From contig CACLRF010000001.1 in the NCBI GenBank assembly GCA_902609235.1, forward strand, positions 26,800 through 90,799: a stretch of DNA of 64,000 nucleotides. Direction: 5' to 3'. A program made the translations under genes and the position numbers. Shown one piece after another: positions 1 to 45,993 of this stretch (the first letter of the stretch is position 1; each line of letters begins with the position of its first letter). This stretch comes from an uncultured Pelagibacteraceae bacterium (lineage in GTDB: Bacteria > Pseudomonadota > Alphaproteobacteria > Pelagibacterales > Pelagibacteraceae). The notes under the pieces were generated by a model. The model ran no database searches and was not told where the DNA came from. It saw only the letters and a list, made by a program, of their open reading frames with translations.

Positions 1-1323
1 AAACTTCTGACCAAATACAGCGCCTAAATTTTTCATTCTTTCATAACAAGGGGCTGTTCTTAGTGGTCTTGCTGCTGGTCTTTCTTCATCTGGATAATGA
101 ACTATGAAAACATGACTATATGCTTCTTCATTTTTTGCTTTTAAATAAGATTTAGTTGCATAATTTCCGTAACGTCTTGGTTCAACTCCTAACATATCAA
201 TTGTAGGTTCACCATCAACTATCCATTCTGCTAATTGCCAACCTGCACCTCCTGCTGCTGTTATTCCAAAACTATGTCCTTCATTAATCCAAAAATTTTT
301 AAGACCCCAAGCAGGTCCAACAATTGGATTTCCGTCAGGTGTATAACAGATTGCTCCGTTATAAACTTTTTTTACCCCAACCTCCCCAAACGCAGGAACT
401 CTATGAATTGCTCCTTCAATATGTGGAGCTAATCTGTCTAAGTCTTCTTGAAATAATTCATATTCAGAATTTTTTGATGGCCCTTCTACATAACAAGCTG
501 GTGCACCATCCTCATAAGGACCTAAAATTAATCCTCCAGCTTCTTCCCTCATATACCATCTGCTATCACTATCTCTTAAGACGCCCATTTCTGGTAATCC
601 ATCTTTTTTTCTTTTTTGAATTGCAGGATGTGGCTCTGTAACAATGTATTGATGTTCAACAGGTATTACCGGAATGTCTAATCCTACCATTTCACCTGTT
701 TGACGTGCAAAATTTCCTGAACATGAAATAACATGTTCGCACTCTATTGATCCTTTATCTGTTTCTACAACCCATCCTTTTTTAGTTTGCCTCATAGATA
801 GAACTGTTGTGTTTCTATAAATTTCAGCTCCTCTGTTCCTTGCACCTGTTGCTAATGCTTGTGTTAAATCAGCTGGTTGAATATATCCATCTTCTGGATG
901 TTGTATTGCTCCAACTAAATCATCCGTATGACATAATGGCCAAATTTCTTTTACTTGTTCTGGTTTCAAAAATTTAACATCTACTCCAATAGTTCGAGCG
1001 ACACCTGCGTATTGATGGTATTCATCCATTCTATCTTTTGTGCTTGCTAGACGAATATTTGAAACAACACTAAAGCCAACATTTTTCCCTGTTTCTTCTT
1101 CCAATGTTTTATAAAGATTAACTGCATACTTGTGAAGTTGTCCAACTGAATAACTCATATTAAATAAAGGTAATAAACCTGCTGCGTGCCAAGTAGATCC
1201 TGAAGTTAACTCTTTTCTTTCAACTAGAACAACATCAGACCAGCCTTTTTTTGCTAAATGATAAAGGGCACTTACCCCTACAACTCCTCCACCAACTACT
1301 ACAACTTTAGTTTTTGTTTTCAT
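1..1323 (-). CDS. FAD-dependent oxidoreductase, dimethylglycine/sarcosine dehydrogenase-like (truncated by window edge)
   Basis: Open minus-strand frame from ATG at 1323 to window edge, absent from ORF track; translation starts MKTKTKVVVVGGGVVGVSALYHLAKKGWSDVVLVERKELTSGSTWHAAGLLPLFN (FAD-binding GxGxxG, DMGDH-like). Confidence 0.85.
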   Translation of the reverse strand, partial: MKTKTKVVVVGGGVVGVSALYHLAKKGWSDVVLVERKELTSGSTWHAAGLLPLFNMSYSVGQLHKYAVNLYKTLEEETGKNVGFSVVSNIRLASTKDRMDEYHQYAGVARTIGVDVKFLKPEQVKEIWPLCHTDDLVGAIQHPEDGYIQPADLTQALATGARNRGAEIYRNTTVLSMRQTKKGWVVETDKGSIECEHVISCSGNFARQTGEMVGLDIPVIPVEHQYIVTEPHPAIQKRKKDGLPEMGVLRDSDSRWYMREEAGGLILGPYEDGAPACYVEGPSKNSEYELFQEDLDRLAPHIEGAIHRVPAFGEVGVKKVYNGAICYTPDGNPIVGPAWGLKNFWINEGHSFGITAAGGAGWQLAEWIVDGEPTIDMLGVEPRRYGNYATKSYLKAKNEEAYSHVFIVHYPDEERPAARPLRTAPCYERMKNLGAVFGQKF

Positions 1324-10477: not shown

Positions 10478-11111
10478 CTTTCGTAACCCTGTACAAACCT
10501 AACCAAGCATTTACATCTTTGCTAGCAATATAGTCTGATTTAAAAAACTCTATTTCTTTCCATTTATTATTTTGGTTTAAACTTATGATTTTTTTATCAA
10601 ATCCATATTCTTCATGAATACCTTCGTTAATAGTAAAACAAATTAACCCACCTGGTTTTGTTATTCTTATAAACTCATCTAATGCATTTGGTTTTACATG
10701 CCCAAAAGTAAATGTTCCAACACACATAACTCCACCATAAAAGTTATTCTCAATTTCTATTGGTTTATTTAAATCAACCTTTACTAATTTTTGATAAAGA
10801 TCTTTTGGAACAGTATCTAATAAAGTTTGAGATAAATCGGCTCCATGAAAATTTTTAAAACTATATTTTTTAAGCTCCATTCCAACTAAACCTGTTCCAC
10901 ATCCAGCATCAAAAATTAAAGTATCTTTATTTTTCTCGTATTTGTTAAATGTTTCTGCAGTTTCTCTAGGTCCTGTATAGTTCCAATCAACCATGTCTTT
11001 ATTGTATTTATCTTTGTCTCCCCACTCATCGTAGTACTTCATAACTTCATCAGTAGTTTTAAGTTTATAAATTGGAATTTTGTTTCCTACGTCTTTTTGA
11101 GCCATTAGCAT
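10470..11111 (-). CDS. Class I SAM-dependent methyltransferase
   Basis: LIFDAGCGTGLVGMEL motif I. Confidence 0.85.
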   Translation of the reverse strand: MLMAQKDVGNKIPIYKLKTTDEVMKYYDEWGDKDKYNKDMVDWNYTGPRETAETFNKYEKNKDTLIFDAGCGTGLVGMELKKYSFKNFHGADLSQTLLDTVPKDLYQKLVKVDLNKPIEIENNFYGGVMCVGTFTFGHVKPNALDEFIRITKPGGLICFTINEGIHEEYGFDKKIISLNQNNKWKEIEFFKSDYIASKDVNAWLGLYRVTKDV

Positions 11112-13510
11112 CTCATTTTTTGACCACTTGGATCATAAAGTGGTTCTTTAATTATTGAACAATTAAATAAATCTCCATTTATCTCTACTTGAATTTTATT
11201 TTCAGAATTAATGGATTTTTTATCAACAAAACTAAACGCTACACTTTTATTTACAAAATGAGCAAAACCACCTGAAGTTACATAACCAATACTTTGATCT
11301 CCATTCATAACAGCTTCATTATTTGTTACATCAATTTCATTTGTTTCAACAATTAATGGTATGAGTTTATTTGAAGAATTTTCCTTTTGTGCACTTTCTT
11401 TACCAATAAACTCTTTATCCCAATTAATAAAAACATCTAAGCCTGTCTCTTTTGCAGTAAAATCTGGTCTATAATCTAAAGTCCAAGCTCCCCAATTTTT
11501 CTCTAACCTCATTGACATTAATGCTCTTCCACCAAATGGTTTAATATTAAATTCTTTTCCTGCTTCCATTAATTCTTCATAAAGTTTTAATTGATAGTGA
11601 GGTGCTACATAAATTTCATAACCAAGTTCACCTGTAAATGAAATTCTATTTATTATTGCTGGAACACCCCCAACAAACATTCTTCTAGAATCTCTAAATT
11701 TAAATTTTTCATTTGAAACATCGTCTCTTACAATTTTTTCTAAAACCTTCCTTGAGTTAGGTCCTGCAATAGACAATCCATGATACTCATCAGATCTATT
11801 GGAGTAACTTAAATTAAACTTTTCTAAATGACTTTCAAACCAACGTCTGTGCATTTCTTGAGCAGCTCCAGATCCAAATACCATGAACTCATTTTCATCT
11901 AAGCAAGCTACAGTTAAATCACCACATAATTTTCCTCTATATGACAACATTGGGGATAAAGATATTCTTCCTGGTTTAGGAATCTTTCCAGCCATAATAT
12001 GATCTAAAAATTTTCTAGCATCAGGACCTTTGAATTCATGTTTTGAAAAGTTAGCAACTTCTATTAAACCAACATTTTCTCTTACATTAATAACTTCTTT
12101 TGAAACATAGTCATGTGATCTCGATCTTTTAATAGTAGGCTCTTCGTGAGCATCTTCTTTATTGTTCGCAAACCACAAAACGTTTTCCAAACCAAAACTA
12201 TCTCCCATAACAGCACCTTGATTTACAAAACGATCATATAGTACAGTAGTTTTTTGTTTTCTTCCCTTTGGTAAAGTTTCATTTGGAAATGTCATAATAA
12301 ATCTTCGCTCATAATTTTCTGAAGATTTAATCGTTCCATACTGAGGTGAAGCATAATCTCCAAAACGAGCAACATCCATTGCCCAAACATCAATGGAAGG
12401 CTCTCCATCAATAATCCATTCAGCAATACATTTCCCAACACCACCCCCTTGGCAAAATCCAGCCATAACACCAACTGCAACCCAATAATTCCTCATTCCT
12501 GGCACTGGACCAATCAGAGGACTTCCATCTGGACCAAAAGTAAAAGGTCCATTAACTATATTCTTAATACCTGCACGTTCTAGCGCTGGCATTCTTTCAA
12601 AACCAATTGCAAGTCTATCTTCAATATTATCTAACTTTGGCTCAAGTAACTCATGGCCAAAATTCATTGGTGTACCTTCTACTTTCCAAGGAGTTGATTT
12701 TGGCTCATAAGTTCCAAGCAACATTCCTTTACCTTCTTGTCTAAAATAAATATTTCCCTCAAAATCTGTTCCTATAGGCAATCTTTGGTCACCCATTGCT
12801 TCTATTTCAGGAATAGGTTCTGTAATCAAATAATGATGCTCCATTGGTTGAACTGGAAGATTTAATCCAGCTAATTGCCCAACTTCTCTTGCCCAAAGTC
12901 CTCCTGCATTAATAACAATTTCCGCATTAATGTTTCCTTTTTCAGTAAAGACATCCCAAGTTCCATCCTCTTTTTGTTTCGTGTCTTTTACTACAGTGTG
13001 AGTGTAGTATTTTCCACCATGAACTTTTGCAGCTTTTGCAAAAGCATAAGTAACTCCCGATGGATCAACCTCACCATCTATAGGATCCCATAAAGCTAAC
13101 AAATATCTAGAAGGGTCAATTAATGGATTTTTCTTTTTTACTTCTTCCAAAGAAATAAATTCTTGGTCAAGTCCCATGTATCTTGCTTTTGATCTTTCTC
13201 TCTTTAAATAATCTGCCCACACCTCATTTGAAGCTAAATAAAAACCTCCACTGGGTTTAAAGCCTAGAGAATGCCCTGACTCTTTTTCTATTTCTTTATA
13301 TAAGCCTATTGTATAAGCCATCATCCTAGAGATATTAGGGTCAGATGAAATCACGTGAACATTTCCCGCTGCGTGCCAAGACGAGCCTGAAGTAAGTTCG
13401 TTTCTCTCAAGTAAAATACAATCCTTTAATCCAAATTTAGATAAGTGATAAAGGATAGAACAACCAACTACACCGCCTCCTATGATTACTACTTTGGCAT
13501 GTTTTTCCAT
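11105..13510 (-). CDS. Dimethylglycine dehydrogenase-type FAD + GcvT fusion
   Basis: N-terminal FAD domain (VVIIGGGVVGCSILYHLSKFG) plus C-terminal aminomethyltransferase domain (FTGELGYEIYV). Confidence 0.9.
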   Translation of the reverse strand: MEKHAKVVIIGGGVVGCSILYHLSKFGLKDCILLERNELTSGSSWHAAGNVHVISSDPNISRMMAYTIGLYKEIEKESGHSLGFKPSGGFYLASNEVWADYLKRERSKARYMGLDQEFISLEEVKKKNPLIDPSRYLLALWDPIDGEVDPSGVTYAFAKAAKVHGGKYYTHTVVKDTKQKEDGTWDVFTEKGNINAEIVINAGGLWAREVGQLAGLNLPVQPMEHHYLITEPIPEIEAMGDQRLPIGTDFEGNIYFRQEGKGMLLGTYEPKSTPWKVEGTPMNFGHELLEPKLDNIEDRLAIGFERMPALERAGIKNIVNGPFTFGPDGSPLIGPVPGMRNYWVAVGVMAGFCQGGGVGKCIAEWIIDGEPSIDVWAMDVARFGDYASPQYGTIKSSENYERRFIMTFPNETLPKGRKQKTTVLYDRFVNQGAVMGDSFGLENVLWFANNKEDAHEEPTIKRSRSHDYVSKEVINVRENVGLIEVANFSKHEFKGPDARKFLDHIMAGKIPKPGRISLSPMLSYRGKLCGDLTVACLDENEFMVFGSGAAQEMHRRWFESHLEKFNLSYSNRSDEYHGLSIAGPNSRKVLEKIVRDDVSNEKFKFRDSRRMFVGGVPAIINRISFTGELGYEIYVAPHYQLKLYEELMEAGKEFNIKPFGGRALMSMRLEKNWGAWTLDYRPDFTAKETGLDVFINWDKEFIGKESAQKENSSNKLIPLIVETNEIDVTNNEAVMNGDQSIGYVTSGGFAHFVNKSVAFSFVDKKSINSENKIQVEINGDLFNCSIIKEPLYDPSGQKMRC

Positions 13511-14561: not shown

Positions 14562-15740
14562 TCATTTCATTATGTTGTTTGCAACCCATTTGTGGAAATG
14601 ATGAGTGGGATTATCCATCGCAGGTGAAAAATTTCCCCCATTATAAGATGGAGATTTTCTACCGTCCTGCATTCCCTCAATTATATTTAAATCTTCACTT
14701 TGAACTCCTTTCCAAAGTTCAAAGTTTTGTTTTCTAAGTGATTTGAATTTCTTTGCATTTGCTGCTTCATTACCAACATAATAAATTTCCATATGTTCTT
14801 TTGTATATTCATTATTTACTGGTTCTAACCAGTAGGCATAAAAATGGTCTTTATGAATTCCAAGCATCACATTTGGAAATAAAGCAACGTATTCAGCAAT
14901 GTGCTCTTGATCTTTTGGCCAATTTGGAAAAGTTGGAAATTTTAAGCTACTTTTAAATCTTGGATTATAAACCACAGTACCTTGACCAGCAAATCGATTT
15001 GGCAATCCTTGAATATGATAATGATCATCAATTTTTGAGTAAGAGTTTAATCCAGGATGAACCCAGGGTAGATGATAGCTTTCACAATAATTTTCTATTG
15101 CAAATTTCCAATTACATTTAGCATTTAAATTAAAATAACCATAATCTTTAGAGTAAACCATTAAATTTCTATCTTTAAGAGACCAAAATTTTCTCCACCT
15201 ATCATTCAGAGGTTTAATATATTTTTCAAAATTGATTTCATTTTTGTTTAAATTTACAAAAATTAAATCTAACCAAACATGAGATCTAACTTCTTTAAGG
15301 CCGCTTTGTAATTTGCTAAATTTATTACAATTATGTTTGTTCATTCCACCAATATGTGGTGTAGCTATTAACTTACCACTCATATCATAAGACCAAGAAT
15401 GATAAGGACATCTTATTACATTCTTAATTTTACATTTTTCTTGGAGAATCTTAAAACCACGATGGCTACAAACATTATGAAAAACTTTTATTTTATTATT
15501 TTTATCTCTTAAAATAATTAATGGAATTCCTAGCAAATCAAATGGTTTCGCATCTCCAATATCTGGTACTGAACTACCAACACCAATTACAACCCATTTA
15601 TTTTCAAAAATTTTTTTTCTCTCAATAGATAAATAATCTAGATCGGTGTAACACTCATTTGGTAGGCCATGAGCTTGATGAATATTTTTATTTACTACTT
15701 TTAATTTTTTTAAATCGAGTATTTGAGATAACTTTTTCAT
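14562..15740 (-). CDS. Rieske non-heme iron oxygenase alpha subunit (choline/glycine-betaine monooxygenase-like)
   Basis: VCSHRG...CPYHSWSYD Rieske motif, NWKFAIENYCESYHLPWVHPG mononuclear iron site. Confidence 0.85.
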   Translation of the reverse strand: MKKLSQILDLKKLKVVNKNIHQAHGLPNECYTDLDYLSIERKKIFENKWVVIGVGSSVPDIGDAKPFDLLGIPLIILRDKNNKIKVFHNVCSHRGFKILQEKCKIKNVIRCPYHSWSYDMSGKLIATPHIGGMNKHNCNKFSKLQSGLKEVRSHVWLDLIFVNLNKNEINFEKYIKPLNDRWRKFWSLKDRNLMVYSKDYGYFNLNAKCNWKFAIENYCESYHLPWVHPGLNSYSKIDDHYHIQGLPNRFAGQGTVVYNPRFKSSLKFPTFPNWPKDQEHIAEYVALFPNVMLGIHKDHFYAYWLEPVNNEYTKEHMEIYYVGNEAANAKKFKSLRKQNFELWKGVQSEDLNIIEGMQDGRKSPSYNGGNFSPAMDNPTHHFHKWVANNIMK

Positions 15741-15934
15741 TTCAACTTTTATTAAACCTCCTTGTTTTAGTTAGAATTAATTAAAGCTAAATTTTTACGA
15801 TTCTCTTATAATGATTTGTTGAAATACAGTTTTGCAGTTTAAAATATAAACAAACTCTTTGAAAAAAAAATTTGCTGAAAATTTCATAAAAAAAACTCTA
15901 TAACTAAATAAATCGCATTTAAAGACAATTTGAC

Positions 15935-15951
15935 TTCAACTGAAGGTTGAA
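15935..15951 (+). other. Hairpin TTCAAC-TGAAG-GTTGAA in the leader of the SBP gene
   Basis: Perfect 6-bp inverted repeat read from sequence. Confidence 0.4.
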
Positions 15952-16017
15952 AGATATTTGCAATATTTTCGTCGATATGTTGTAGTGTTTAATCAAAAAT
16001 TAACTAACGGAGATATA

Positions 16018-17028
16018 ATGAAAAAATTAAAAACAATTCTATTTTCCGCGCTTTTAGCATTTGGTATGACTTCTTTTGCAAATGCTTGTGGAAAATTAGT
16101 TATAGCCGAACAAAACTGGGCATCTGCCGAGTTAATGGCAAACGTTGATAAAATCATTCTCGAAGAAGGATATGGGTGTGACGTAGAATTAGTACCTGGT
16201 GCTACTATGCCTACATTTACTTCAATGAATGATAAAGGAACACCTGACATGAACCCTGAACAATGGGCAAATGCAGTTTACACTCCTTTAAAAAAAGCGG
16301 TAAGTGAAAAAAGATTAATTATTGCAAATAAAGCTCCAATTACAGGTCTTGGAGAAGGTTGGTGGTTAAATCCAGCAGCTTTAGAAAAACACCCAGAGCT
16401 TAAAGGAATGACAGCAGTTCAAATTTTAGAACGTCCAGATTTGTTTCCTGATAAAGAGGACCCATCAAAAGGTGCTTTTATGGGATGTCCAGCAGGTTGG
16501 GGATGTCAGTTAGCTAATGCAAATTTGTACAGAGCATTTGAAATGGAAAAAAAGGGTTGGAAACTTATTGATCCAGGTTCAGCTGCAGGTTTAGATGGTT
16601 CAATTGCTAAAGCTTCAGATTCTGGTGAGCCATGGTTTGGATATTACTGGAATCCTACATCAATGGTTGGAAAATATAATTTACAACCAGTTGATTTTGG
16701 TGTTCCTTTTGCAGGTAGAGATAATTGGGACAATTGCATCACTCTTGCAGAACAAGATTGTGCAAATCCAAAACCAACAGCTTGGACAAAATCTGAAGTT
16801 AACTCAATTGTAAGTGCTAACTTTGCTAAAACTGGAGGAAAAGATGTTCTTAAATATGTTGAAAGTAGAACTTTTCCAGGCACAGTAATGAATGGTATGT
16901 TAGTTTATATGGCCGACAACCAAGCAAAAGGTTCTGATGCTGCAGTTGAGTTTTTAATTAAGCATGAAGATATTTGGACTAAGTGGGTATCTTCTGGTGC
17001 TGCAAAAAAAATCAAAAAAAGTTTATAA
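16018..17028 (+). CDS. Glycine betaine/quaternary-amine type ABC transporter substrate-binding protein
   Basis: Signal peptide MKKLKTILFSALLAFGMTSFANA then CGKLVIAEQNWASAELMANVDKIIL; ATG at 16018 preferred over 15958 because the signal peptide starts there. Confidence 0.88.
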   Translation: MKKLKTILFSALLAFGMTSFANACGKLVIAEQNWASAELMANVDKIILEEGYGCDVELVPGATMPTFTSMNDKGTPDMNPEQWANAVYTPLKKAVSEKRLIIANKAPITGLGEGWWLNPAALEKHPELKGMTAVQILERPDLFPDKEDPSKGAFMGCPAGWGCQLANANLYRAFEMEKKGWKLIDPGSAAGLDGSIAKASDSGEPWFGYYWNPTSMVGKYNLQPVDFGVPFAGRDNWDNCITLAEQDCANPKPTAWTKSEVNSIVSANFAKTGGKDVLKYVESRTFPGTVMNGMLVYMADNQAKGSDAAVEFLIKHEDIWTKWVSSGAAKKIKKSL

Positions 17029-17039
17029 TTAACTTTCAA

Positions 17040-17068
17040 TTACGAGCCTATTTAATATAGGCTCGTAA
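17040..17068 (+). other. Intercistronic hairpin, 12-bp stem
   Basis: TTACGAGCCTAT-TTAAT-ATAGGCTCGTAA perfect inverted repeat between SBP and permease genes; no strong T-run follows. Confidence 0.75.
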
Positions 17069-17080
17069 AGTTTACTATTT

Positions 17081-17965
17081 ATGGAATTTTTTACTGAATT
17101 TCCAGAACTGGGAAGAAGATCCCAAATGGAGCTAAGAAAAGGTATAGACTTAGCTTTTAGAAATTTTTCAAAGGAATATGGGGATAGTATAGAGGCATTC
17201 TTTGATCCATTGTTATTTTTTTTAGTATCATTAGAAAAATTATTATTATCTACACCATGGATAATAATCATTGCAGTTATTTGTGGATTAGCATGGCTGG
17301 GTTCAAAAAGTTGGAAATTAGTTACAGGAAGTGCAATTGCTTTTTTATTAATTGGTTATTTTGGAATGTGGGAAGATTGTATGGCAACAGTTGCAATTAT
17401 TACTGTATGTACAATCATTTGTATTGTTGTTGGTATTCCAATAGGAATTGTAATGGCTAGATCCTCTAGAGCAGAAAAAACAATACTTCCTGTATTGGAT
17501 ATGATGCAAACAATTCCTAGTTTTGTTTATTTGATACCAATTTTGATGTTATTAGGAATTGGAAAAGTTCCAGGATTAATTGCTGTTTGTGTCTATGCAG
17601 TTCCTCCAATAATTAGATTAACTAATCTAGGTATTAGAGAAGTGGACAAAGAGACTTTGGAAGCTAGTGAAGCCTTTGGAGCAACCACAGCGCAAAAATT
17701 AAAATCTGTTCAGATTCCACTTGCTTTGCCAACTGTTTTTGCAGGTGTAAACCAAACCATAATGATGGCTTTAGCTATGGTAGTTATTGCTTCTATGATA
17801 GGCGTAAAAGGCCTTGGTGTACCAATATTAAGAGCTGTTTCTAACCAATATTTAGCTCTTGGAATGATGAATGGATTGGCAATAGTTGCTCTCGCAATTG
17901 TCTTTGATAGAGTCACGCAAGAATATGGTAGAAGGATCCAAAAGCATAGAGGTCAGATAAAATAG
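17081..17965 (+). CDS. ProW-type ABC transporter permease
   Basis: MMQTIPSFVYLIPILMLLGIGKVPG...LASEAFGAT-type permease motif; multi-TM. Confidence 0.88.
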   Translation: MEFFTEFPELGRRSQMELRKGIDLAFRNFSKEYGDSIEAFFDPLLFFLVSLEKLLLSTPWIIIIAVICGLAWLGSKSWKLVTGSAIAFLLIGYFGMWEDCMATVAIITVCTIICIVVGIPIGIVMARSSRAEKTILPVLDMMQTIPSFVYLIPILMLLGIGKVPGLIAVCVYAVPPIIRLTNLGIREVDKETLEASEAFGATTAQKLKSVQIPLALPTVFAGVNQTIMMALAMVVIASMIGVKGLGVPILRAVSNQYLALGMMNGLAIVALAIVFDRVTQEYGRRIQKHRGQIK

Positions 17966-18015
17966 TTGATACTTTGATGCATCGAATTTACTAGACTCAT
18001 ATTTCAAAATAAATA

Positions 18016-18756
18016 ATGATCTCCCCTATGAATTTTTCATTGGAAATAGGACCTAAAACAGAGGTTGATACAGTTCCAGCATTGTCTGATGTTTACATCA
18101 CAATGCTACCTGGAGGTGATTACAGAGAAACTGCTGATAAAGCAGTAGAGCTTGTAAAAAAAGGATTTAACCCTGTACCTCATTTTCCTGCTAGATCAAT
18201 GCATGATGAAAAAGAACTTAAAGATTATGTTTCTAGATGCAAAGATGGAGGGGTGAAGCAAGCCTTAATTATTGGAGGCGGAAGAGAACCAGCAGGTAAA
18301 TTTGATAGTTCATTTCAACTTTTAGAGACAGGTTATTTTGAAAAAATGAAAATAGGAATTGCTGGACATCCCGAGGGGAGTCCTGATATATCCGATTCAG
18401 AATTAGAAAAAGCCATGATAGATAAAAAGCCTTATGCTGATTATATTGTAACTCAGTGGTTACTTGATCCTCAGCCTATTATAGATTTTATTTCTAAGCA
18501 AAGCGTACCAGTGCATGTGGGAATTACTGGGCCATTAAAAATATCTAGCTTAATTAAGTTTGCTAATATTGTAGGGGCAAAAAATTCCTTAAACTTTCTA
18601 AAATCTAATTTTACTAAGGCATTAGATTTATTGAAACCTAAAGACCCTAATGATTTAATTGGGAAAGTTAAATCGCATACTGATAACTTCCACATTTATA
18701 CATTCGGCGGCTTGAAGGAAACTAACAAGTGGTTGAAGGAGAATAGTTATGTCTAA
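18016..18756 (+). CDS. Methylenetetrahydrofolate reductase-like (MetF family, short form)
   Basis: FNPVPHFPARSMHDEKEL, KQALIIGGGREPAG, KIGIAGHPEGSP MTHFR-like pattern. Confidence 0.8.
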   Translation: MISPMNFSLEIGPKTEVDTVPALSDVYITMLPGGDYRETADKAVELVKKGFNPVPHFPARSMHDEKELKDYVSRCKDGGVKQALIIGGGREPAGKFDSSFQLLETGYFEKMKIGIAGHPEGSPDISDSELEKAMIDKKPYADYIVTQWLLDPQPIIDFISKQSVPVHVGITGPLKISSLIKFANIVGAKNSLNFLKSNFTKALDLLKPKDPNDLIGKVKSHTDNFHIYTFGGLKETNKWLKENSYV

Positions 18757-20107
18757 TGAATTTGACTATACTAAACTAAAACATGTTGCTTCTGTTGATC
18801 AATCTGACAGAGAAGTACCATATAACTTAAGACAAAGTGGGCCAACAAAAGTTGAAATGTTAATTTCAACAAGGGTAAGAAAATCACCTTATTGGCATTT
18901 ATCAATGCAGGCAGGTTGTTGGAGAGCAACTGTATACAATCGTATTTATCATCCAAGAGGTTATGTAAAACCTGAAGATGGTGGAGCTATGGTTGAATAC
19001 GATGCGATCGTAAACCACGTAACAATGTGGAACGTTGCTGTTGAAAGACAAATAAGAGTAAAAGGTCCAGATGCAGAAAAATTTACGGACTATGTGATCA
19101 CTAGAGATGCAACAAAAATTTCGTCGATGAGAGCAAGATACGTCATTTTATGTAACGCTTATGGTGGAGTTTTAAATGACCCAATACTTTTAAGAATTTC
19201 AGAAGATGAGTTTTGGTTTTCATTATCGGATTCTGATATTGGAATGTATTTACAAGGTGTTAATGCTGATGGAAGATTCAATTGTACTATTGAAGAAATT
19301 GATGTCAGTCCAGTTCAAATACAAGGACCTAAATCAAAAGCATTAATGAAAGATCTATGTGGCGATCAAGTTGATTTTGATAACATGCCTTTCTACGGAT
19401 TAGCAGAAGCTAAGGTTGGTGGAAGAGATGTTGTGATTTCTCAGTCTGGTTTCTCTGGTGAAGCTGGTTATGAAATTTATCTAAGAAACTCTACTTTATA
19501 CGCTGAAGACATGTGGAATGCTGTGCTTGAGGCTGGGAAAAAACACAGCTTAATGGTTATTGCTCCTGCTCACCATAGAAGAATTCAAGCGGGTATTCTT
19601 TCATGGGGACAAGACATGGATCAACAACACAATCCGTTCCAATGTAATTTAGGTTATCAAGTTTCTTTATCTGGTAAAGGAGAATGGAACAAAACTGCTG
19701 ATTATGTTGGTAAGGCTGCACTGGAAAAAATGAAAGAGGAATTAAAAGCAGGAAAAAAACCTTACAAACTTCAATTAGTTGGTATGGAATTGGGTGGTAA
19801 ACCTATTGATAATTATGCTCCTGACTTTTGGTTAGTTTCCCCAGAAAGTGGTGGAGATCCAGTAGGATTTTTAACTTCACCATGGTGGCACCCTGAAAAG
19901 AAAACAAACATTGCTATGGGATATGTTCCTTTCGATGGAACGTTAAATACAAATGGTTTTCCAAAAGGAAAAGTGGGAACAAAATATAAAGTTCATCTAC
20001 CCGAACAATATTCAGAAACTCCAGGAACACCAGTAGATGCTGTAGTTGTTGATATTCCATTTAAAGAGTCTTTCAACGCAAATACAAGAGAAGTTGTAAA
20101 AGGCTAA
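18749..20107 (+). CDS. GcvT-fold, THF-dependent demethylase-like protein (DmdA/LigM-like)
   Basis: VERQIRVKGPDAEKFTDYVITRD, VQIQGPKSKALM, SQSGFSGEAGYEIYL; 452 aa; overlaps the metF-like gene by 8 nt. Confidence 0.85.
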   Translation: MSNEFDYTKLKHVASVDQSDREVPYNLRQSGPTKVEMLISTRVRKSPYWHLSMQAGCWRATVYNRIYHPRGYVKPEDGGAMVEYDAIVNHVTMWNVAVERQIRVKGPDAEKFTDYVITRDATKISSMRARYVILCNAYGGVLNDPILLRISEDEFWFSLSDSDIGMYLQGVNADGRFNCTIEEIDVSPVQIQGPKSKALMKDLCGDQVDFDNMPFYGLAEAKVGGRDVVISQSGFSGEAGYEIYLRNSTLYAEDMWNAVLEAGKKHSLMVIAPAHHRRIQAGILSWGQDMDQQHNPFQCNLGYQVSLSGKGEWNKTADYVGKAALEKMKEELKAGKKPYKLQLVGMELGGKPIDNYAPDFWLVSPESGGDPVGFLTSPWWHPEKKTNIAMGYVPFDGTLNTNGFPKGKVGTKYKVHLPEQYSETPGTPVDAVVVDIPFKESFNANTREVVKG

Positions 20108-20153: not shown

Positions 20154-20264
20154 ATGACCAAAAGTTTTCTAATAGCAGTTTGCATTATCATTGCTATTGC
20201 TTTAATAATATTTCCATTAATTGTTTCTTATAAGGCTCAAAAAAATAAAAATAAAAAAAATTAA
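20154..20264 (+). CDS. 36-aa single-TM microprotein
   Basis: ATG 20154 to TAA 20264: MTKSFLIAVCIIIAIALIIFPLIVSYKAQKNKNKKN; TAATG overlap with next gene; below ORF-track size cutoff. Confidence 0.5.
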   Translation: MTKSFLIAVCIIIAIALIIFPLIVSYKAQKNKNKKN

Positions 20265-20809
20265 TGTTCGCAGAATTTTTAAATATAATTTTTAAGTCAA
20301 TAAAATTAGACAAAACTCTTTATTCGGATAATAAAAATTTTGGAGAAGCTTCAATATACTTTGCAGGGATTATAATGATACTAGATGGTATCGCTGGGGC
20401 AGTAGCGGCGAATACCATTATTAAAACAGCAATTGCAATGTCTGGTCTAACTGCAATAGTTACTTGGCTAATATGGGCAATTTTTATTTTTGTAATTGGA
20501 GTTAAATTATTTCCTGATAAGCAAACCAAAGTTTCATTTAAAAAAGTTTTAACAGCTGTTGGATTTGCACATGCCCCTGGTTTATTAAGATTTTTTGCGG
20601 TCACACCAGATTTAATGATACCAATAATTTTTCTTACTCAGTTCTGGATTTTTGCAAGTTTAATAATATCAACTAAACAAATATTGAGTTTAAAATCTAA
20701 TTTTAAATCTTTTGGGATTGTGCTTTTATCCTTTTTAATTATTGCATTTTTATCTATCTCATTTGTAATGAGTAGAATGAATATGCTTCCAGTAAGTCAA
20801 ATCAATTAA
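20264..20809 (+). CDS. Multi-TM membrane protein, Yip1-like
   Basis: 181 aa with about five hydrophobic segments; Yip1-like organisation. Confidence 0.5.
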   Translation: MFAEFLNIIFKSIKLDKTLYSDNKNFGEASIYFAGIIMILDGIAGAVAANTIIKTAIAMSGLTAIVTWLIWAIFIFVIGVKLFPDKQTKVSFKKVLTAVGFAHAPGLLRFFAVTPDLMIPIIFLTQFWIFASLIISTKQILSLKSNFKSFGIVLLSFLIIAFLSISFVMSRMNMLPVSQIN

Positions 20810-29290: not shown

Positions 29291-29878
29291 TTATTTAAAT
29301 TCGAAGCCAAACTCTAGAGATGCATCTGTGATAGAATGATATAAAGATTCTCCAAAACTTCTTAGCGTAAATAACCTTACTTTATTTGGATTTTGACCTA
29401 ATATGTCTACAGTGAAAGCTATTCCATTATAAGTTGAGTTAATTGAATTATTTTTATCTAGTGTATTAAAATTAAAAGGACATCCTTTTTTCAAAACTTC
29501 TATCGTATCATTTCCTTCGATTTCAATAATAGCTCTTGAATGAGATAAATCTGTTACAGCAAAGTTTGTATCTTTAAATTTATCTACTATATTTTTTATT
29601 AAATCTTTTTTTGTTGAAACTAAAAGCCAGTTTTTTGGTCCATTCCACATAATCCTTGTAGTTTCATTAAACACTACAGTTAGAGGTTCATTTTTAAATT
29701 TTAAACCATCAATATCAATACTCTCAAATGAAACTGAAGAATTTTTATACTGTACTATTTGAACAATTAATAAATTTTGGATTTCAGATATTTTAAGTAA
29801 ATCATTTTCATTTTTACCTTCATAATCTCCAAAGTGTCCTTTTGCATGAACATTTGATAAAGCTGAAATCAATGTCAT
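29291..29878 (-). CDS. soxG: Sarcosine oxidase gamma subunit-like (or N-methylglutamate dehydrogenase small subunit)
   Basis: Position after soxA-like gene, GcvT-like short domain. Confidence 0.8.
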
Positions 29879-32871
29879 GATCTAACTCTTTCACCTTTTG
29901 GATCTACGTAATGTGATGAAACTATCTCAACTGGTATTACTTTATTTTTAAGTGGCGACATCGCAAAAAGCTTTTGACCAATCATATTTTTTCCATCTTT
30001 CAAAATTGCTAGAGAAAAAGGATTGTCATATTCAACACTCCAACAAGATGCTGAGATATGACCTAATTTTGGATTTGGTAGTGCCGCTTTATCATCTTTA
30101 ACTAAGTGAGAGCCTTCTGGGATACTTGTTTGTTTATCTAACGGAACTACCCCTACTATTCTTTGTCTATTTTGAGCGGTAAAAGCAGATCGTTTCAATG
30201 ATCTTTTTCCAATAAAATCTTTCTTTTTACTAACAAGACCTTCTAAAGCGTTATCATATGGAATTGTTCTGCCATCGAGTTCCGATCCAGCAACATGTCC
30301 CATTTCAATTCTAAGTGTTGACAATGCTTCAGTTCCATATGGTTGAATTTTAAATTCCTCACCAACTTCCATGATTTTTTTCCACATAAAGTTTCCATAA
30401 TCAGATTCAACATTCACTTCATAAGCAAGCTCTCCTGAAAATGAAATTCTAAATATTCTTGCTTTAACACCAAATAAATCTCCCTCCATATATCCCATGA
30501 AAGGTAAGCCTTCATTAGATACGTCAGAATTTGGAAATAGTTTTTGTAATAAATCTCTGGATTTAGGTCCAGCGATAGCTGCTCCAGCCCACTGTTCTGT
30601 AGTTGAAACTACGTTTACATTTAATTCAGGCCAAACTAATTGCAAATAATATTCTAAATGCGAAAGGACATTTGCTGCTTGAGCTGTTGTCGTCGTCATA
30701 TGATAATGATTTTCAGAAATTCTTGTAGTTGTTCCATCATCCATGACAATTCCATCCTCTCTTAGCATAACTCCATATCTGGCTTTTCCAACTGGTAACT
30801 TCAACCATGCATTTGTATAAACTCTATTTAATAACTCTGCTGCATCAGGACCTTTAATATCAATTTTTCCTAAAGTTGTTACGTCACAAACTCCAACATT
30901 CGTTCTTACATTTTTAGCCTCTCTTTTAGATGCTTCAAATAAGTTTTCATTACCTCTTTTATAATACCTCGGTCTTAGCCAAACACCCGCATCAACAAAA
31001 ATCGCATTATTTTTTTCATGCCATTCATGCATTGGTGATTTTCTTGTTGGTTTTGAGTGTTTTCCAACTTCCCTCCCAACAATTGCTCCAATCGAAACAG
31101 GTGTATATGGTGGTCTAAAAGTTGTATGACCAACAGCAGGAACTACTTTGTTTTCAATTTCAGATACTAGCTGAAGACCATTTAAATTACTTGTTTTACC
31201 TTGGTCTGTTGCCATACCAAGAGTTGTATATCTTTTAACATGTTCAATTGACCGATAACCTTCTCTTAAAGCAATTTCTACATCAGATACAGCTACATCG
31301 TTTTGAAAATCTAAAAATCTTTTATAATTTTTACCTTTTGGTAATGGAACACACCAAAACTTATCGTGTTGAGAAGATTTCTTTTCAACAACGTTTGGAA
31401 TAGCTATCTTATTATCATTTTCAGTAATTTTTTTTGATAATTCACTTCCTGCTTTAAATGAAGTTTTTAATGTTTCATCAAGCGAAAATACTCCATTGGC
31501 TGCACCTAAAGTAATTTCATTTTGTTTTGATTGCCCTGGCACAAATGCATCAATTTCTTCTTTAAACTTAGTTTTATTTCCTGATTGAGACGCTAAATGA
31601 ATGGTTGGCGTCCAAAAACCAGAAACACAAATACAATCACATTGTATATTTTCTATTTCACCGAGCTGTTTTTTGTCCTCTGAAATCTTTGCAATATCTG
31701 CAGATTTTACTTTTTTATACCCTTGTGCTGCGACCACAACATAAGAATTTTTAATGTTAATTCCTAAATTTTTTGCTTCATCAATTATTTCTGACTCAGG
31801 ATTTTTTCTTGAATCTAAAACTATAGAATCAACTCCATTTTTTTTAAATTCAATTGCTGTTTCGTATCCACTATCGTTATTTGTGAATACCAATGGTTTT
31901 CTTCCAACTAAAACACCATATACTTTTAAATATTCTTTAGCAGCTGAAGAAAGCATCACACCTGGTGTATCATTATTTCCAAAAACTATTGGTCTTTCAA
32001 TTGATCCAGAAGAAATCAAAACTTCCTTAGCACGAATGTACCACAGCCTCTTATTTGGGTGATACTTTTTTGTTGCTGGTAAATGATCACTTACTTTTTC
32101 AGACATCACAAGCATGTTGTGATCATAGTATCCAAAAATTTGAGATCTATTTTTTACAACTACATTTGGCATTGTTTTTAGCTCAGTGATTATCCCCTCA
32201 GCCCAATCTTTTCCTGATTGATTACCAATATTGACATCACTAGTTAGTAAAGATCCACCAAATCTTGGTTTGTCTTCAGCTAAAATTACTTTAGCTCCAT
32301 TTTTTGCTGCAGCATATGCGCTAGCTAATCCTGAAGGTCCTGAACCTGCAATTAATAAATCACAATACTCGTATTTATGTTCATACCTTTCATTATCATG
32401 TTTGGTTGATGCCACACCTAAACCAGCTGCTTTTCTAATAAATGGCTCATAAATTCGATACCAAAAACTTTTTGGCCACATAAAAGTTTTGTAATAAAAA
32501 CCTGCTGGTAAAAAAATTTTTAAAAAATTATTAATTGCACCTATGTCAAAATTAACACTTGGCCAACAATTAACACTTTTTGCTTCTAAACCTTCAAAAA
32601 GCTCCTGCTCTGTAGCTTTAACATTAGGCTCTGTTTCACCATTTCTATATAGTTGAACTATTGCATATGGTTCATCAACTCCAGCACCAAAGAAGCCTCT
32701 TGGTCTATGGTACTTAAAGCTTCTTCCAACTAAATGAACTCCATTTGCCAATAAAGCTGATGCCAATGTATCCCCTTCATAACCAAAATAGGATTTACCA
32801 TTAAATTTAAATGATAATTCTTTTTCCCTATTTACTAATCCTCCGATATTAATTCTAAAAGCTTGAGACAT
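29875..32871 (-). CDS. soxA: Sarcosine oxidase alpha subunit-like (or MgdC-type)
   Basis: 998 aa; [27 protein letters not shown] ferredoxin-like domain, FAD/NAD domain, C-terminal GcvT domain. Confidence 0.9.
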
Positions 32872-40146: not shown

Positions 40147-42300
40147 CTAAGCTATGCCAAGATGTTTTTTTCTTTTTTCAACCCAAGTTCTAATCAAATT
40201 ATCAAAAATCAATCCAATAAACGCAACACAGATACCAAGAGTTAAACCAATTCCTGCTCCATTTTTATCTGAAAGTGCTTTTAAAATATATTGACCAAGA
40301 TCTTCTGTTCCAATGAAGGCTCCAATTATAACCATAAATAAAGCAAAAACTATGGTTTGATTTAAACCAAGCATCATGTGTGGAAATGCTAATGGAAACT
40401 CAATTTTTGTTAATCTTTGAAATTTATTTACACCAGACATTGTTGCAGCTTCATGTAAGCCGACAGGGACACTTCTTAAACCCTCAATGGTGTATCTTGT
40501 TGCAGGAATTGTGGCATAAACAATTACTGCAATTAATACAGAAGTATCTGTAATTCCAAAAAGCATCATTACAGGAATTAGATATACAAATGATGGGAAT
40601 GTTTGAAATATATCACAAACACCGAGCATAAACGCTGCAGATTTTTTATTTTGAAAACATAATGTTCCAACTGTAAATCCTATTAAACAAGAAATAACTA
40701 CTCCAAAAGTTGCCATATATAATGTAACTAACGCTCTATCCCACCATGGGCTTAATGCAATAAATAAAGTCAAAGCAGCAACTACCAATGCTGATCGAAT
40801 TCCTCCAATTAAATATCCTGCACCAACCGCAAGTACTAATGTAGCAACTGCAGGCATTCTTAAATATAAAGCCCTCATTGGCTGAAGCACATCTTGAATT
40901 AACCATGTATTGAATGCTTTGATATACACGAAGAAAGTATCAAAAATCCAATCAACTCCTTTATTCCAAAAATCTGCTGTTGATATTCCCTTATTATGGG
41001 GAATTTCAAACAAGTAATTAAAACTACCTTTGAAAATAAAAGTCCCAACATATGCAAGAATTATTCCAATTACGAATGAAATTGCAAAAAATATTACGTT
41101 TTTATTTCTTTGGAAAAATGTCAGATTACCAAAATAATCTGTTTGTTTATTTGCCCAAGCTAAAGACATTTTATCAAGAAGAATTGCAATTAAACTAATA
41201 CACAATCCTGCTTCCAAAGCTAATCCGATATTAAGTTGGTTCAAAGCTAATAATAAATTAAATCCCAAACCCTTGGCACCAATAAACGCAGATATAACTG
41301 CCATTGAAAAACAAACCATTATTACTTGGTTAACTCCAATTAAAATATCTCGTCTTGCTGTTGGAATTAGTACCTTTAACATTAACTGCCAATTAGTACA
41401 GCCACTCATTCTTCCAGCTTCAATAACTTCTGGTGGTATAGCTCTTAAACCCAATATTGTTAATAATATCATTGGTGGGACTGCAACAACCATCGTAATG
41501 ATTACAGCAGCATGATCACCAACTCCAAATAGAACAAGTGCGGGAACTAATACAGCGTATTGTGGCATAGTCTGCATCACTAGAAGAATTGGGTACAATG
41601 CTTTTTCAACACGTTTACTTTTGTAAGCTGCAATACCCAGGCCTAAACCAAAAATAAATGAAAGTGGAGCTGCAACAAGTATAAAAGAAAGTGTTTGCAT
41701 TGAAGGTTTCCATTGACCAAATATAGAAATATAGATCATTGTTAAACCTGCAAACAAAGCCAACCCTTTTCCACTTAATTTATAAGATAATATTGCTGCT
41801 CCAGCAGCAACAATAGTCCAAGGCAAACCCGGTAACTCTAACCAAGGATAAGCATCAATAAAATCCCAGCTAGTAAATGCAACAATAGTTTCTAAACCTC
41901 CAAGCAAAATCTCTCTAATTAATTCAATTAAAAAGGTCATAAATGCAGTTAAATTTCTACTTATCTGCAAAAGTAGTGGTCGAGTTTTAAACTCTTGAGT
42001 ATCTTCATTCCAAAATTCCATTGGCATCCACTCATTCATTAAGAAAAATAAAGAGTCGTTAATCCAAATAGGCAGCCATCCTAGAAGTGGAGGCAACCTC
42101 CAAAATACATCAAAGGCATAATACCTAACCTCTTTACCTAGAAAAAAGTAAACACTTTGGTTTGGATCTTTAACAAATTCAGCCTGACCTCTTATAAATT
42201 TGTAGGTTTCAGGAACATCGATAGCAAAACATAAACCAAAAAATACAATTAACAAAAATAGCCATTGAAATAATTTTGGATATTTTTTTAAATACTCCAT
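40147..42300 (-). CDS. tmoW: TMAO/betaine-type ABC transporter permease with two fused permease domains (TmoW-like)
   Basis: 717 aa; two ProW-type modules (LVMQTMPQYAVLVPALVLFGVGD and CDIFQTFPSFVYLIPVMMLFGITD). Confidence 0.85.
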   Translation of the reverse strand: MEYLKKYPKLFQWLFLLIVFFGLCFAIDVPETYKFIRGQAEFVKDPNQSVYFFLGKEVRYYAFDVFWRLPPLLGWLPIWINDSLFFLMNEWMPMEFWNEDTQEFKTRPLLLQISRNLTAFMTFLIELIREILLGGLETIVAFTSWDFIDAYPWLELPGLPWTIVAAGAAILSYKLSGKGLALFAGLTMIYISIFGQWKPSMQTLSFILVAAPLSFIFGLGLGIAAYKSKRVEKALYPILLVMQTMPQYAVLVPALVLFGVGDHAAVIITMVVAVPPMILLTILGLRAIPPEVIEAGRMSGCTNWQLMLKVLIPTARRDILIGVNQVIMVCFSMAVISAFIGAKGLGFNLLLALNQLNIGLALEAGLCISLIAILLDKMSLAWANKQTDYFGNLTFFQRNKNVIFFAISFVIGIILAYVGTFIFKGSFNYLFEIPHNKGISTADFWNKGVDWIFDTFFVYIKAFNTWLIQDVLQPMRALYLRMPAVATLVLAVGAGYLIGGIRSALVVAALTLFIALSPWWDRALVTLYMATFGVVISCLIGFTVGTLCFQNKKSAAFMLGVCDIFQTFPSFVYLIPVMMLFGITDTSVLIAVIVYATIPATRYTIEGLRSVPVGLHEAATMSGVNKFQRLTKIEFPLAFPHMMLGLNQTIVFALFMVIIGAFIGTEDLGQYILKALSDKNGAGIGLTLGICVAFIGLIFDNLIRTWVEKRKKHLGIA

Positions 42301-42303
42301 AGT

Positions 42304-43335
42304 TTAACTACCGTTTTTTCTTCCTCCAAAAACTGTATCTATTATTTTTGAAGGTTTAATTGATCCTACAATATTATTATTTGAGTCAACTACTCCTACT
42401 AATTTTTCTTGAGTAAGTATTTTTTCCGCAACATTTTCTATAATTTCATCTTTTGATACTTTTAAATCTCCTAAATTATCTTTACTTGAAGCATCCATTA
42501 CATCCTCAATAATCAAAACTTTCTCTCTCGGTACTTCTTCAGTAAACTTTCTTACATATTCAGTTGCTGGATTTAGTACGATATTGGCGGGTGTATCTAA
42601 TTGTTCAATTATACCATCTTTCATGATTGCTATTCGATCAGCTAACTTTAATGCCTCATCAAAATCATGAGTAATGAACATGATAGTTTTCTGTAATTTT
42701 TCCTGAAGTCTTAAAAACTCATCTTGCATTTCTTTTCTAATCAATGGATCTAATGCAGAAAAAGGTTCATCTAAAAACCATATATCAGGCTCTACTGCTA
42801 ATGACCTTGCGATTCCTACCCTTTGTTGTTGTCCACCTGAAAGTTCTCTTGGGAAATAATTCTCTCTTCCATCTAGTCCAACTAGTTTTACCATTTCCAT
42901 TGCTCTACTAATACTCTTTTCTGTATTAGTGCCTTTTATCTGAAGTGGAAAAGCAATATTTTCAACAACTGTTTTATGAGGTAACAAAGCAAAGCTTTGA
43001 AACACCATTCCCATTTTATTTCGTCTAAGCTCAATAAGCTCTTTATTATTTAATTCTAATAAATCTTGACCTTCAATAAAAATTTTTCCACCAGTAGCAT
43101 CCGTTAATCTTGAAATGCATCTAAGAAGTGTTGATTTACCTGAACCAGATAAACCCATTACTACTAACATTTCTCCTTTTGCAACTTCAAAAGAAGCATT
43201 GTTAACTCCAACTATACATCCTTTTTCTTGAAAAGTTTTTGCATCTACATTGCCGTTAGATTCTTCAAGCATTTTTTTGGCATTTTCTCCAAAAATTTTA
43301 TAAACCGATTCACATTTGATTACAGTTTCAGACAT
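42304..43335 (-). CDS. tmoV: ABC transporter ATP-binding protein, ProV/TmoV-like
   Basis: VMGLSGSGKSTLLRCISRL Walker A; LSGGQQQRVGIARSLAVEPDIWFLDEPFSALDP; only ABC ATPase seen in window. Confidence 0.9.
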   Translation of the reverse strand: MSETVIKCESVYKIFGENAKKMLEESNGNVDAKTFQEKGCIVGVNNASFEVAKGEMLVVMGLSGSGKSTLLRCISRLTDATGGKIFIEGQDLLELNNKELIELRRNKMGMVFQSFALLPHKTVVENIAFPLQIKGTNTEKSISRAMEMVKLVGLDGRENYFPRELSGGQQQRVGIARSLAVEPDIWFLDEPFSALDPLIRKEMQDEFLRLQEKLQKTIMFITHDFDEALKLADRIAIMKDGIIEQLDTPANIVLNPATEYVRKFTEEVPREKVLIIEDVMDASSKDNLGDLKVSKDEIIENVAEKILTQEKLVGVVDSNNNIVGSIKPSKIIDTVFGGRKNGS

Positions 43336-43398
43336 AGATTTTTAAAGTTATCTTAAAATCAATAAAATTAAAATGTTAATAATTGTTACCTTCCTTCA

Positions 43399-43950
43399 TT
43401 AAAAATTTTTAATAAAATAAACTCTAGTATCAATCCCAGTACTTAAAAAACTTAAAGCTTCTCCACTTATAGTAATACTTTCATCAACTCCTACGTTATT
43501 TCCACTAACGGTAAAACCAGCAAAACATTTGCCTTTTTCTTTGTCCCATTTTACGAAAGTTTCATCAATTTTATTTCCATTAATAGTATAAAGCTCATGT
43601 GCTCTAAAATTTAAAAAATTTGCACCCATTATTGCTCTTTGTGGAATTAGTTTTGTAGACTTACATACCTGTTCATATACCTCATCCGTCAATTTATAGT
43701 GATCTGTACCATCAAATGAGACTAATATTCCCGAAGGTAATTGGGAAATTAATTCGCTAAGTTTTTTTTCCTCAGCAATTCTTTCCTCTTCTAACTTCAT
43801 TCTTTTTACCAAATCATCACCCTGACCAAAAATTCCATTTAAAATGCTAAAAGACATAATTACTAAAAGGGTAATAATTATGAGGCCAATAAATTGCCTT
43901 AGAGACTCGGGTAAATCTTTTATTTTATTAATGTAATTTTCTTTTGACAT
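43399..43950 (-). CDS. Membrane-anchored hypothetical protein
   Basis: 183 aa, one TM near N-terminus. Confidence 0.6.
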   Translation of the reverse strand: MSKENYINKIKDLPESLRQFIGLIIITLLVIMSFSILNGIFGQGDDLVKRMKLEEERIAEEKKLSELISQLPSGILVSFDGTDHYKLTDEVYEQVCKSTKLIPQRAIMGANFLNFRAHELYTINGNKIDETFVKWDKEKGKCFAGFTVSGNNVGVDESITISGEALSFLSTGIDTRVYFIKNF

Positions 43951-44327
43951 TATTCTTGTAACTTACCGTTCTTCCAAATACCTGATTTTTTTTTTCCATC
44001 TGCCCATGTAAATGTTCCTTGGCCATTCATAAAACCTTTAGACCACTCTCCTTCATAAGTAGAACCGTCTGGAAAAATTAAAGTTCCTTGTCCACTCCAT
44101 TCACTATTTTTAAATTCCCCTTTGTAAATATAGCCATTAGGCCATGTTTCGACACCTTGACCTTGTTTTTTTGTACTAACCCATTGTCCTTCATAAGTAG
44201 TTTTATCTGTATAAACCCATTTACCATAACCGTTTTCACAATTGCCTTCTTTACAACCAGTGCTTCTTGCTAAAACAGAGGATGAGATTAATAGCCCTAA
44301 AAGAATACTAATGATAAATTTTTTCAT
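43950..44327 (-). CDS. Secreted MORN-repeat protein
   Basis: Signal-like N-terminus; repeated YEGQW/YKGEF/YEGEW..GxGxxxxxxG MORN units. Confidence 0.85.
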   Translation of the reverse strand: MKKFIISILLGLLISSSVLARSTGCKEGNCENGYGKWVYTDKTTYEGQWVSTKKQGQGVETWPNGYIYKGEFKNSEWSGQGTLIFPDGSTYEGEWSKGFMNGQGTFTWADGKKKSGIWKNGKLQE

Positions 44328-44362
44328 ATTTATATTTTACATAAAATCATTTAAAAAAAAAA

Positions 44363-44827
44363 TTAGACTTTTTTTTCACTTTTTTTACATGAATAGAAAA
44401 ATATATATTTTTCCGAGTTTTCTCTTTTAACATTTTTAGTAATTTCGTGGATCAATTCACCTGATTTTCTTGTTACTATTGCGGATTCTGAATAATTTTT
44501 TTCTTCATCAAAAGCTTTAAATAAAATAACATCTTTATTAACAATCTTAACAGTTAATTTTTCAGATTTTGAAAGAAATAAAGACAACCCATCTATAAAA
44601 AGTTTTTTGGGTTTTATTGCCTCTATTTTAAATTGATCTAAATTCTTATCATCTAAATCTTTTGCTAAAAAAGTTTGATAATTATATTCTGAATTTTTTA
44701 TTATTTTTTTATCTAAATCACATACAAATGAAAGTTTAATATTTTCTTGAATGTTAACGTCTTTTGCGAATGATAAATTAATAAATAATAGATTTAATAT
44801 TATAACTAGTGAAATTTGTTTAATCAT
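44363..44827 (-). CDS. Exported hypothetical protein
   Basis: Signal-peptide-like MIKQISLVIILNLLFINLSFA. Confidence 0.6.
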   Translation of the reverse strand: MIKQISLVIILNLLFINLSFAKDVNIQENIKLSFVCDLDKKIIKNSEYNYQTFLAKDLDDKNLDQFKIEAIKPKKLFIDGLSLFLSKSEKLTVKIVNKDVILFKAFDEEKNYSESAIVTRKSGELIHEITKNVKRENSEKYIFFYSCKKSEKKV

Positions 44828-44842
44828 AAATAATTATAATTT

Positions 44843-44876
44843 AAAAAAAAATCCCCCCCAACATAGTTGGGGGAGA
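44843..44876 (-). terminator. Rho-independent terminator after TmoX-like SBP gene
   Basis: Minus-strand read: CTCCCCCAAC-TATG-TTGGGGGGGA followed by T8. Confidence 0.9.
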
Positions 44877-44901
44877 TTTTAAATTTATATTATGTTTAAC
44901 C

Positions 44902-45852: not shown

Positions 45853-45993
45853 GTATACCCCTCTATTTAAATTAAAATCAACAGTCTATGACAAAAAGAA
45901 TAGGTAGGTAAAGAGTTATTAGTTCTAAAAAATATATATATATTTAAACAATAAAAATGATGATAAAAAATATAACAATATTTAAAAATTAAA

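Follow-up and report, generated by a model that had tools for sequence, protein, structure and literature searches.

Introduction

The demethylase DmdA forms 5-methyl-tetrahydrofolate (5-methyl-THF) from an onium compound (PMC5395565). During growth on glycine betaine (GBT), R. pomeroyi induces its demethylase MtgBCD together with MetF2, THF-linked one-carbon (C1) oxidation and serine ammonia-lyase; MtgC was not found in Pelagibacteraceae, and GBT demethylation in SAR11 was credited to an unvalidated Bhmt (Mausz et al. 2025, PMC12478193). In HTCC1062, the methyl groups of GBT are oxidised to CO2 (PMC3160333). Sun et al. (2011) described SAR11_1264 (MetF) and SAR11_1265, a DmdA-related aminomethyltransferase of unknown substrate, at close to one copy per SAR11 genome, and suggested a second dimethylsulfoniopropionate (DMSP) demethylation in which methyl is removed from methylmercaptopropionate (MMPA) (PMC3160333). 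Here we analyse a 64,000-nucleotide (nt) stretch of an uncultured Pelagibacteraceae bacterium (contig CACLRF010000001.1, positions 26,800 to 90,799; hereafter the window) that carries orthologs of this pair, namely a short MetF-like protein and a GcvT/DmdA-like methyltransferase that we call AMT. Based on gene context, co-occurrence and relationship to DmdA, we consider it fairly probable, though well short of certain, that AMT is a cobalamin-independent GBT:THF methyltransferase. Since the pair was reported by Sun et al., it is not a new find; what is new is the substrate assignment and the recognition of a family that spans two domains of life.

AMT forms a clade apart from DmdA, GcvT and LigM

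AMT (18749-20107, plus strand; 452 amino acids (aa)), the SAR11_1265 ortholog, is composed of GCV_T (136 bits) and GCV_T_C domains only. The N-terminal FAD (DAO) domain and the FAO_M domain of dimethylglycine dehydrogenase (DMGDH) and sarcosine dehydrogenase (SARDH) are not present. AMT scored 234 bits against the DmdA model (NF009133; cut-off 410), 146 and 129 bits against the GcvT models (cut-offs 300 and 236), and 39.5 and 43.6 bits against the LigM and DesA models (cut-offs 580 and 800). Its closest solved relative is DmdA (3tfh, E 6e-43). A maximum-likelihood tree groups AMT with its relatives, including those of haloarchaea, in a single clade with support of 100/100 (99/95 when the distant L168 is included), with DmdA and a DmdA-like group falling in another (100/92). 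The phylogeny that the earlier note had proposed as a check thus places AMT outside the characterised families.

Residue comparisons lead to the same conclusion. F235 is present in 27/27 AMT sequences, at the position held by the DMSP-specific W197 in DmdA and by Y188 in GcvT. Y131, D144, E242 and Y244 are likewise kept across the 27 sequences and align with conserved GcvT or DmdA positions, Y244 corresponding to Y206 of DmdA. The idea that AMT lacks the GcvT catalytic Asp was rejected, as D144 aligns with GcvT D96. The genome carries its true DmdA on another contig, beside acyl-CoA ligase/synthetase and dehydrogenase genes, and a gcvT-gcvH-gcvP set on a third (all named by sequence likeness); none of these is linked to AMT. 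The suspicion in the earlier note that AMT is probably not a canonical DmdA was therefore well founded, and score, tree or key residue sets it apart from DmdA, GcvT, LigM and DMGDH. AMT shares with DmdA the fold, the aligned THF-domain residues and an expected 5-methyl-THF product, but differs in having a longer N-terminus and in lacking dmdBCD neighbors.

The AMT family probably falls within a 'DmgdH' subclade described earlier, whose listed accessions probably include haloarchaeal relatives of AMT. That subclade, reported in 2020 as distinct from DmdA and bearing Phe at the DMSP-specific Trp position, was read as DMGDH-like and given no function (PMC7487153); AMT itself is without the FAD domain. 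A 406-aa protein ~50% identical to AMT (L112 and L168; genome G016) has Trp at the position of F235, branches just outside the clade and may differ from AMT in substrate. An AlphaFold model of AMT, built from 18 near-identical SAR11 sequences, had a mean predicted local distance difference test score of 41 and was discarded.

A MetF-like protein is the constant partner of AMT in SAR11

AMT is the last of four consecutive plus-strand open reading frames (ORFs), all found as the earlier note had described them: a substrate-binding protein (SBP; 16018-17028), a permease (17081-17965), the MetF-like protein (18016-18756) and AMT. The first three are separated from the next ORF by 52 nt, 50 nt and an 8-nt overlap, respectively. 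The MetF-like protein (246 aa), the SAR11_1264 ortholog, is short and divergent, reaching 23.5 bits against Pfam MTHFR (gathering cut-off 24) and falling far under the cut-offs of TIGR00676/00677. Its sole solved relative at E<=0.001 is the MTHFR 7xg9 (E 3.6e-32), which we take to be tied to the LigM system. The aryl O-demethylases LigM and DesA resemble AMT in their GcvT fold, THF dependence and MetF partner, although their substrates are aromatic methoxy compounds.

The MetF gene adjoins AMT in 80/80 SAR11 loci examined (a contig end cuts a few), far above chance, and AMT itself is found at 93-99% identity in 80 named Pelagibacteraceae loci. Conversely, two complete SAR11-family genomes (G098 and G375) are missing AMT, MetF and FAO_M together. 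SAR11_1264 and SAR11_1265 also drop together, ~five- to tenfold, under some conditions (PMC5069961, 2016). SAR11 is without MetH and MetE (PMC5069961, PMC12478193); since these are the consumers of methyl-THF, it would not be needed for methionine, and a MetF that runs oxidatively would therefore make sense.

Linkage to MetF implies that 5-methyl-THF is the product of AMT. This argues against the view that AMT is a folate-binding GcvT/YgfZ-like protein with an aminomethyl or regulatory role and no methyl transfer. Such a protein would fit what AMT has in common with GcvT, namely the GCV_T fold and a conserved Asp (D144) and Glu (E242) of catalytic type, but not the low scores against both GcvT models or the canonical gcvT-gcvH-gcvP set elsewhere in the genome, and we regard it as very improbable.

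The importer genes do not track AMT

The SBP (336 aa, OpuAC-type; OpuAC PF04069 149 bits) is DmpX-like (7yle, E 1.8e-49; 34% identity), and the permease (294 aa; BPD_transp_1) is of the ChoW/ProW type, scoring 267 bits against TIGR03416 (under its cut-off of 363). There is no ATPase gene for the importer at the SBP/permease locus. Upstream, on the minus strand, lies a Rieske oxygenase alpha subunit (14562-15740; Ring_hydroxyl_A 144 bits) that scored 123 bits against the GbcA model (cut-off 670). Because 7/8 residues of the DmpX DMSP pocket are kept, including Tyr200 (PMC10030565), DMSP is the most likely ligand of the SBP, judging from sequence. The eighth position, A153 of DmpX, is Gly in SBPs of type A, the window's included, and mostly Asn in those of type B. 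The window SBP also differs from DmpX in lacking an adjoining ATPase gene and in not being tied to the demethylase.

SBP and permease occur in SAR11 as two alleles, with 30 loci resembling the window and 36 at ~62% identity. Neither gene precedes MetF-AMT in the complete genomes G207 and G297, nor in 8 SAR11 loci where the Rieske gene is present. Pairwise SBP distances correlated with those of the permease (0.87), the Rieske oxygenase (0.64) and BHMT (0.41), compared to 0.08 for MetF and 0.04 for AMT, whose identity stays at 93-99% under either allele. The correlation with the Rieske oxygenase reflects recombination blocks in part, as the neighboring genes are physically linked. Even so, the SBP varies with the Rieske gene and not with AMT, which shows that AMT function is independent of it. 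The earlier note had proposed that AMT demethylates whatever the neighboring SBP binds. This comparison of strains speaks against that claim, and we rejected the SBP as a guide to the AMT substrate; of the proposed THF-linked demethylation module, the MetF/AMT pair held up while the link to the SBP did not. Viewed as a unit, the Rieske/SBP/permease cassette (window 14562-17965 and L009-L088) swaps between two divergent forms or drops SBP and permease, its flanks remaining near constant.

These results bear on the suggestion that AMT is a second DMSP or sulfonium demethylase, acting on DMSP imported by the SBP or on MMPA (Sun et al. 2011). That DmdA is the closest solved relative of AMT, that the adjacent SBP keeps the DmpX pocket and that methyl-THF derived from DmdA requires a MetF too are each in its favor, and it has been put forward in print (PMC3160333). 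It is at odds, however, with the failure of the SBP to track AMT, with F235 in place of W197, and with the presence of a true DmdA at a different site, next to genes for acyl-CoA synthetase and dehydrogenase. Moreover, MMPA has no onium methyl to give, and AMT orthologs accompany dimethylglycine and sarcosine genes rather than dmdBCD. We therefore hold this explanation to be improbable.

AMT accompanies dimethylglycine and sarcosine genes in other Alphaproteobacteria

We sampled 385 alphaproteobacterial genomes, counting AMT at >=63% identity, and found it in 18 genomes from 12 families. In the three genomes of family f31 the gene order is soxBDAG, an 824-aa FAD/GcvT protein, MetF and AMT. A DMGDH ortholog lies within ~7 kb of AMT in families f76, f30, f16 and f141, two of which (f76 and f16) also have soxA near AMT. 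In single genomes, a DMGDH-family gene would fall within 11 kb by chance in ~1-4% of cases. The AMT-linked DMGDH proteins (in L154, L162, L164 and L166) are 56-78% identical to the SAR11 protein encoded at the start of the window (1-1323, minus strand; L001), a DMGDH-type FAD/GcvT protein that extends beyond the window edge and matches mammalian DMGDH over its full length (E 3e-194).

Co-occurrence followed the same pattern. FAO_M, the DMGDH/SARDH domain, was present in 18/18 genomes with AMT compared to 138/385 overall (Fisher 4.5e-9). Among the 138 FAO_M carriers, MTTB, to which the B12-dependent GBT methyltransferase MtgB belongs, was found in 2/18 genomes with AMT and 78/120 without it (Fisher 1.7e-5). 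The 12 genomes of family f29 split into three with AMT only, six with MTTB only and three with both; none was without either, such that all 3 genomes lacking MTTB have AMT. In view of this 3/6/3 split, a weaker trend at the level of families and no signal for AMT versus MTTB over the whole 385-genome sample without conditioning on the DMGDH family (p = 0.39), the pattern is one of complementation with some overlap, not strict exclusion.

AMT neighborhoods repeat the set induced by GBT in R. pomeroyi, with AMT standing for MtgBCD. MtgBCD with MetF2 carries out the same overall reaction, and feeds the same downstream route, as we propose for AMT, but MtgBCD is unrelated, consists of several proteins and requires B12, and its MTTB family is mostly missing where AMT occurs.

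AMT relatives reside in haloarchaeal megaplasmid islands

Relatives of AMT with 51-57% identity are encoded on haloarchaeal megaplasmids. In the maximum-likelihood tree their branches nest among alphaproteobacterial sequences, suggesting that AMT passed between bacteria and haloarchaea. MetF lies near AMT on 9/11 of the haloarchaeal plasmids inspected. The make-up of the surrounding islands varies, drawing on genes for two FAD/GcvT enzymes of 850 aa, threonine/serine ammonia-lyase (IlvA), serine hydroxymethyltransferase, FolD, formate-THF ligase, formate dehydrogenase and a BCCT carrier, and on genes of folate synthesis. One haloarchaeal FAD partner matched Arthrobacter dimethylglycine oxidase (E 3e-178). 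Judged by their gene content, the islands can supply the enzymes for most of a path leading from GBT through dimethylglycine, sarcosine, glycine and serine to pyruvate, with AMT placed at step one. In 2011, a study comparing ten haloarchaeal genomes had noted the BCCT genes and those of the oxidase and brought up betaine use as a possibility, leaving the demethylase unnamed (PMC3102087).

The megaplasmid islands of L179-L182, L184, L185 and L190-L192 bring together genes for folate synthesis, for C1 oxidation and for dimethylglycine-oxidase-like enzymes, and were apparently acquired at least partly from bacteria. The Haloarcula marismortui island has a Rieske oxygenase gene (L181:20028-21164) between two FAD/GcvT genes, its product 22% identical to the SAR11 Rieske protein. 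In L183 and L193, AMT copies adjoin a regulator and an MFS transporter.

Glycine betaine is the probable substrate of AMT

Full-length matches of the repeatedly linked partners to dimethylglycine dehydrogenase and oxidase make GBT the simplest upstream substrate. AMT would transfer one methyl from the quaternary nitrogen of GBT directly to N5 of THF, yielding dimethylglycine and 5-methyl-THF. The MetF-like partner would then oxidise 5-methyl-THF to 5,10-methylene-THF, which could enter the THF-linked C1-oxidation route or serine synthesis, while DMGDH-type and Sox enzymes would convert dimethylglycine to sarcosine and glycine. The DMGDH-type protein at window 1-1323 is the candidate for the step after AMT.

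A related explanation is that AMT acts on another quaternary amine that feeds the dimethylglycine/sarcosine network, such as proline betaine, carnitine, choline or homarine. Several betaines would be compatible with the FAD/GcvT partners and with carriers of the BCCT and OpuAC types, and a Rieske oxygenase gene is nearby both in SAR11 and in Haloarcula marismortui. Yet genes dedicated to other betaines are not among the recurrent partners of AMT, and those partners are ones for which GBT is the simplest source; we consider this explanation unlikely, if less so than one based on DMSP.

Several observations weigh against GBT as the substrate of AMT. The support for it is association throughout: substrate, reaction direction and direct methyl transfer are inferred from family, clade, gene linkage, co-occurrence and the kept THF-domain residues. 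A cobalamin-free step in which a quaternary ammonium passes its methyl directly to N5 of THF has, to our knowledge, no precedent and would be new chemistry; LigM does move methyl off poor leaving groups. Two divergent haloarchaeal AMT copies (L183 and L193; 51% identity) are without MetF or FAD partners. Exclusion between AMT and MTTB was weak when counted per family (4/12 versus 36/56, p = 0.06), and 3/6 genomes with AMT in f29 retain MTTB. Finally, others credit GBT demethylation in SAR11 to a Bhmt homologue present there (PMC12478193).

Other features of the window

A second DMGDH-like FAD/GcvT protein (801 aa; mammalian DMGDH E 1e-172) is encoded on the minus strand at 11105-13510. Farther along, also on the minus strand, lies a SoxA-type protein of 998 aa (29875-32871), with a GCV_T match of 231 bits at window 30244-31032 (C1:57043-57831). 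It is a possible sarcosine oxidase or dehydrogenase alpha subunit for the last demethylation, the SoxA label resting on length and inference. AMT is followed at 20264-20809 by a membrane-like 181-aa protein without annotation, in place of which some strains have a 29-43% identical homologue. At 40147-48333, genes for a TmoX-type SBP (44902-45852; best match 4xz6), an ATPase and a permease adjoin that of a 779-aa GcvT-domain protein (45994-48333), a probable set for import and demethylation of trimethylamine N-oxide.

Implications for SAR11 and for the AMT family

DmdA-like affinity and methyl-THF oxidation were already suggested for SAR11_1264/1265 by the study that described the pair, which, unlike the present analysis, did not report the GBT substrate, the wider family, the haloarchaeal islands or the DMGDH linkage (PMC3160333). 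In the open-access literature (subscription papers and preprints lay outside the scope) we found no report of a THF-dependent betaine demethylase. On balance, and with slightly less assurance than for the reaction itself, we favor the broader proposal that AMT is the founding member of a so far unrecognised, cobalamin-free family of GBT:THF methyltransferases, spread across SAR11, other Alphaproteobacteria and, through transfer of megaplasmid islands, haloarchaea, and that it constitutes a fourth aerobic route of GBT demethylation and the catabolic route of SAR11 for betaine methyls.

If correct, this would add a biochemical route next to Bhmt, GbcAB and MtgBCD, would supply the missing first step of haloarchaeal GBT use, and would assign a substrate to a gene pair whose copy number is reported as close to one per SAR11 genome. 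GBT is a major marine nitrogen osmolyte, and SAR11 are the most abundant bacteria of the ocean. The Bhmt route would send the GBT methyl into methionine, not CO2; transfer straight to THF would account for the way SAR11 oxidises these methyl groups without vitamin B12, which its known enzymes do not use.

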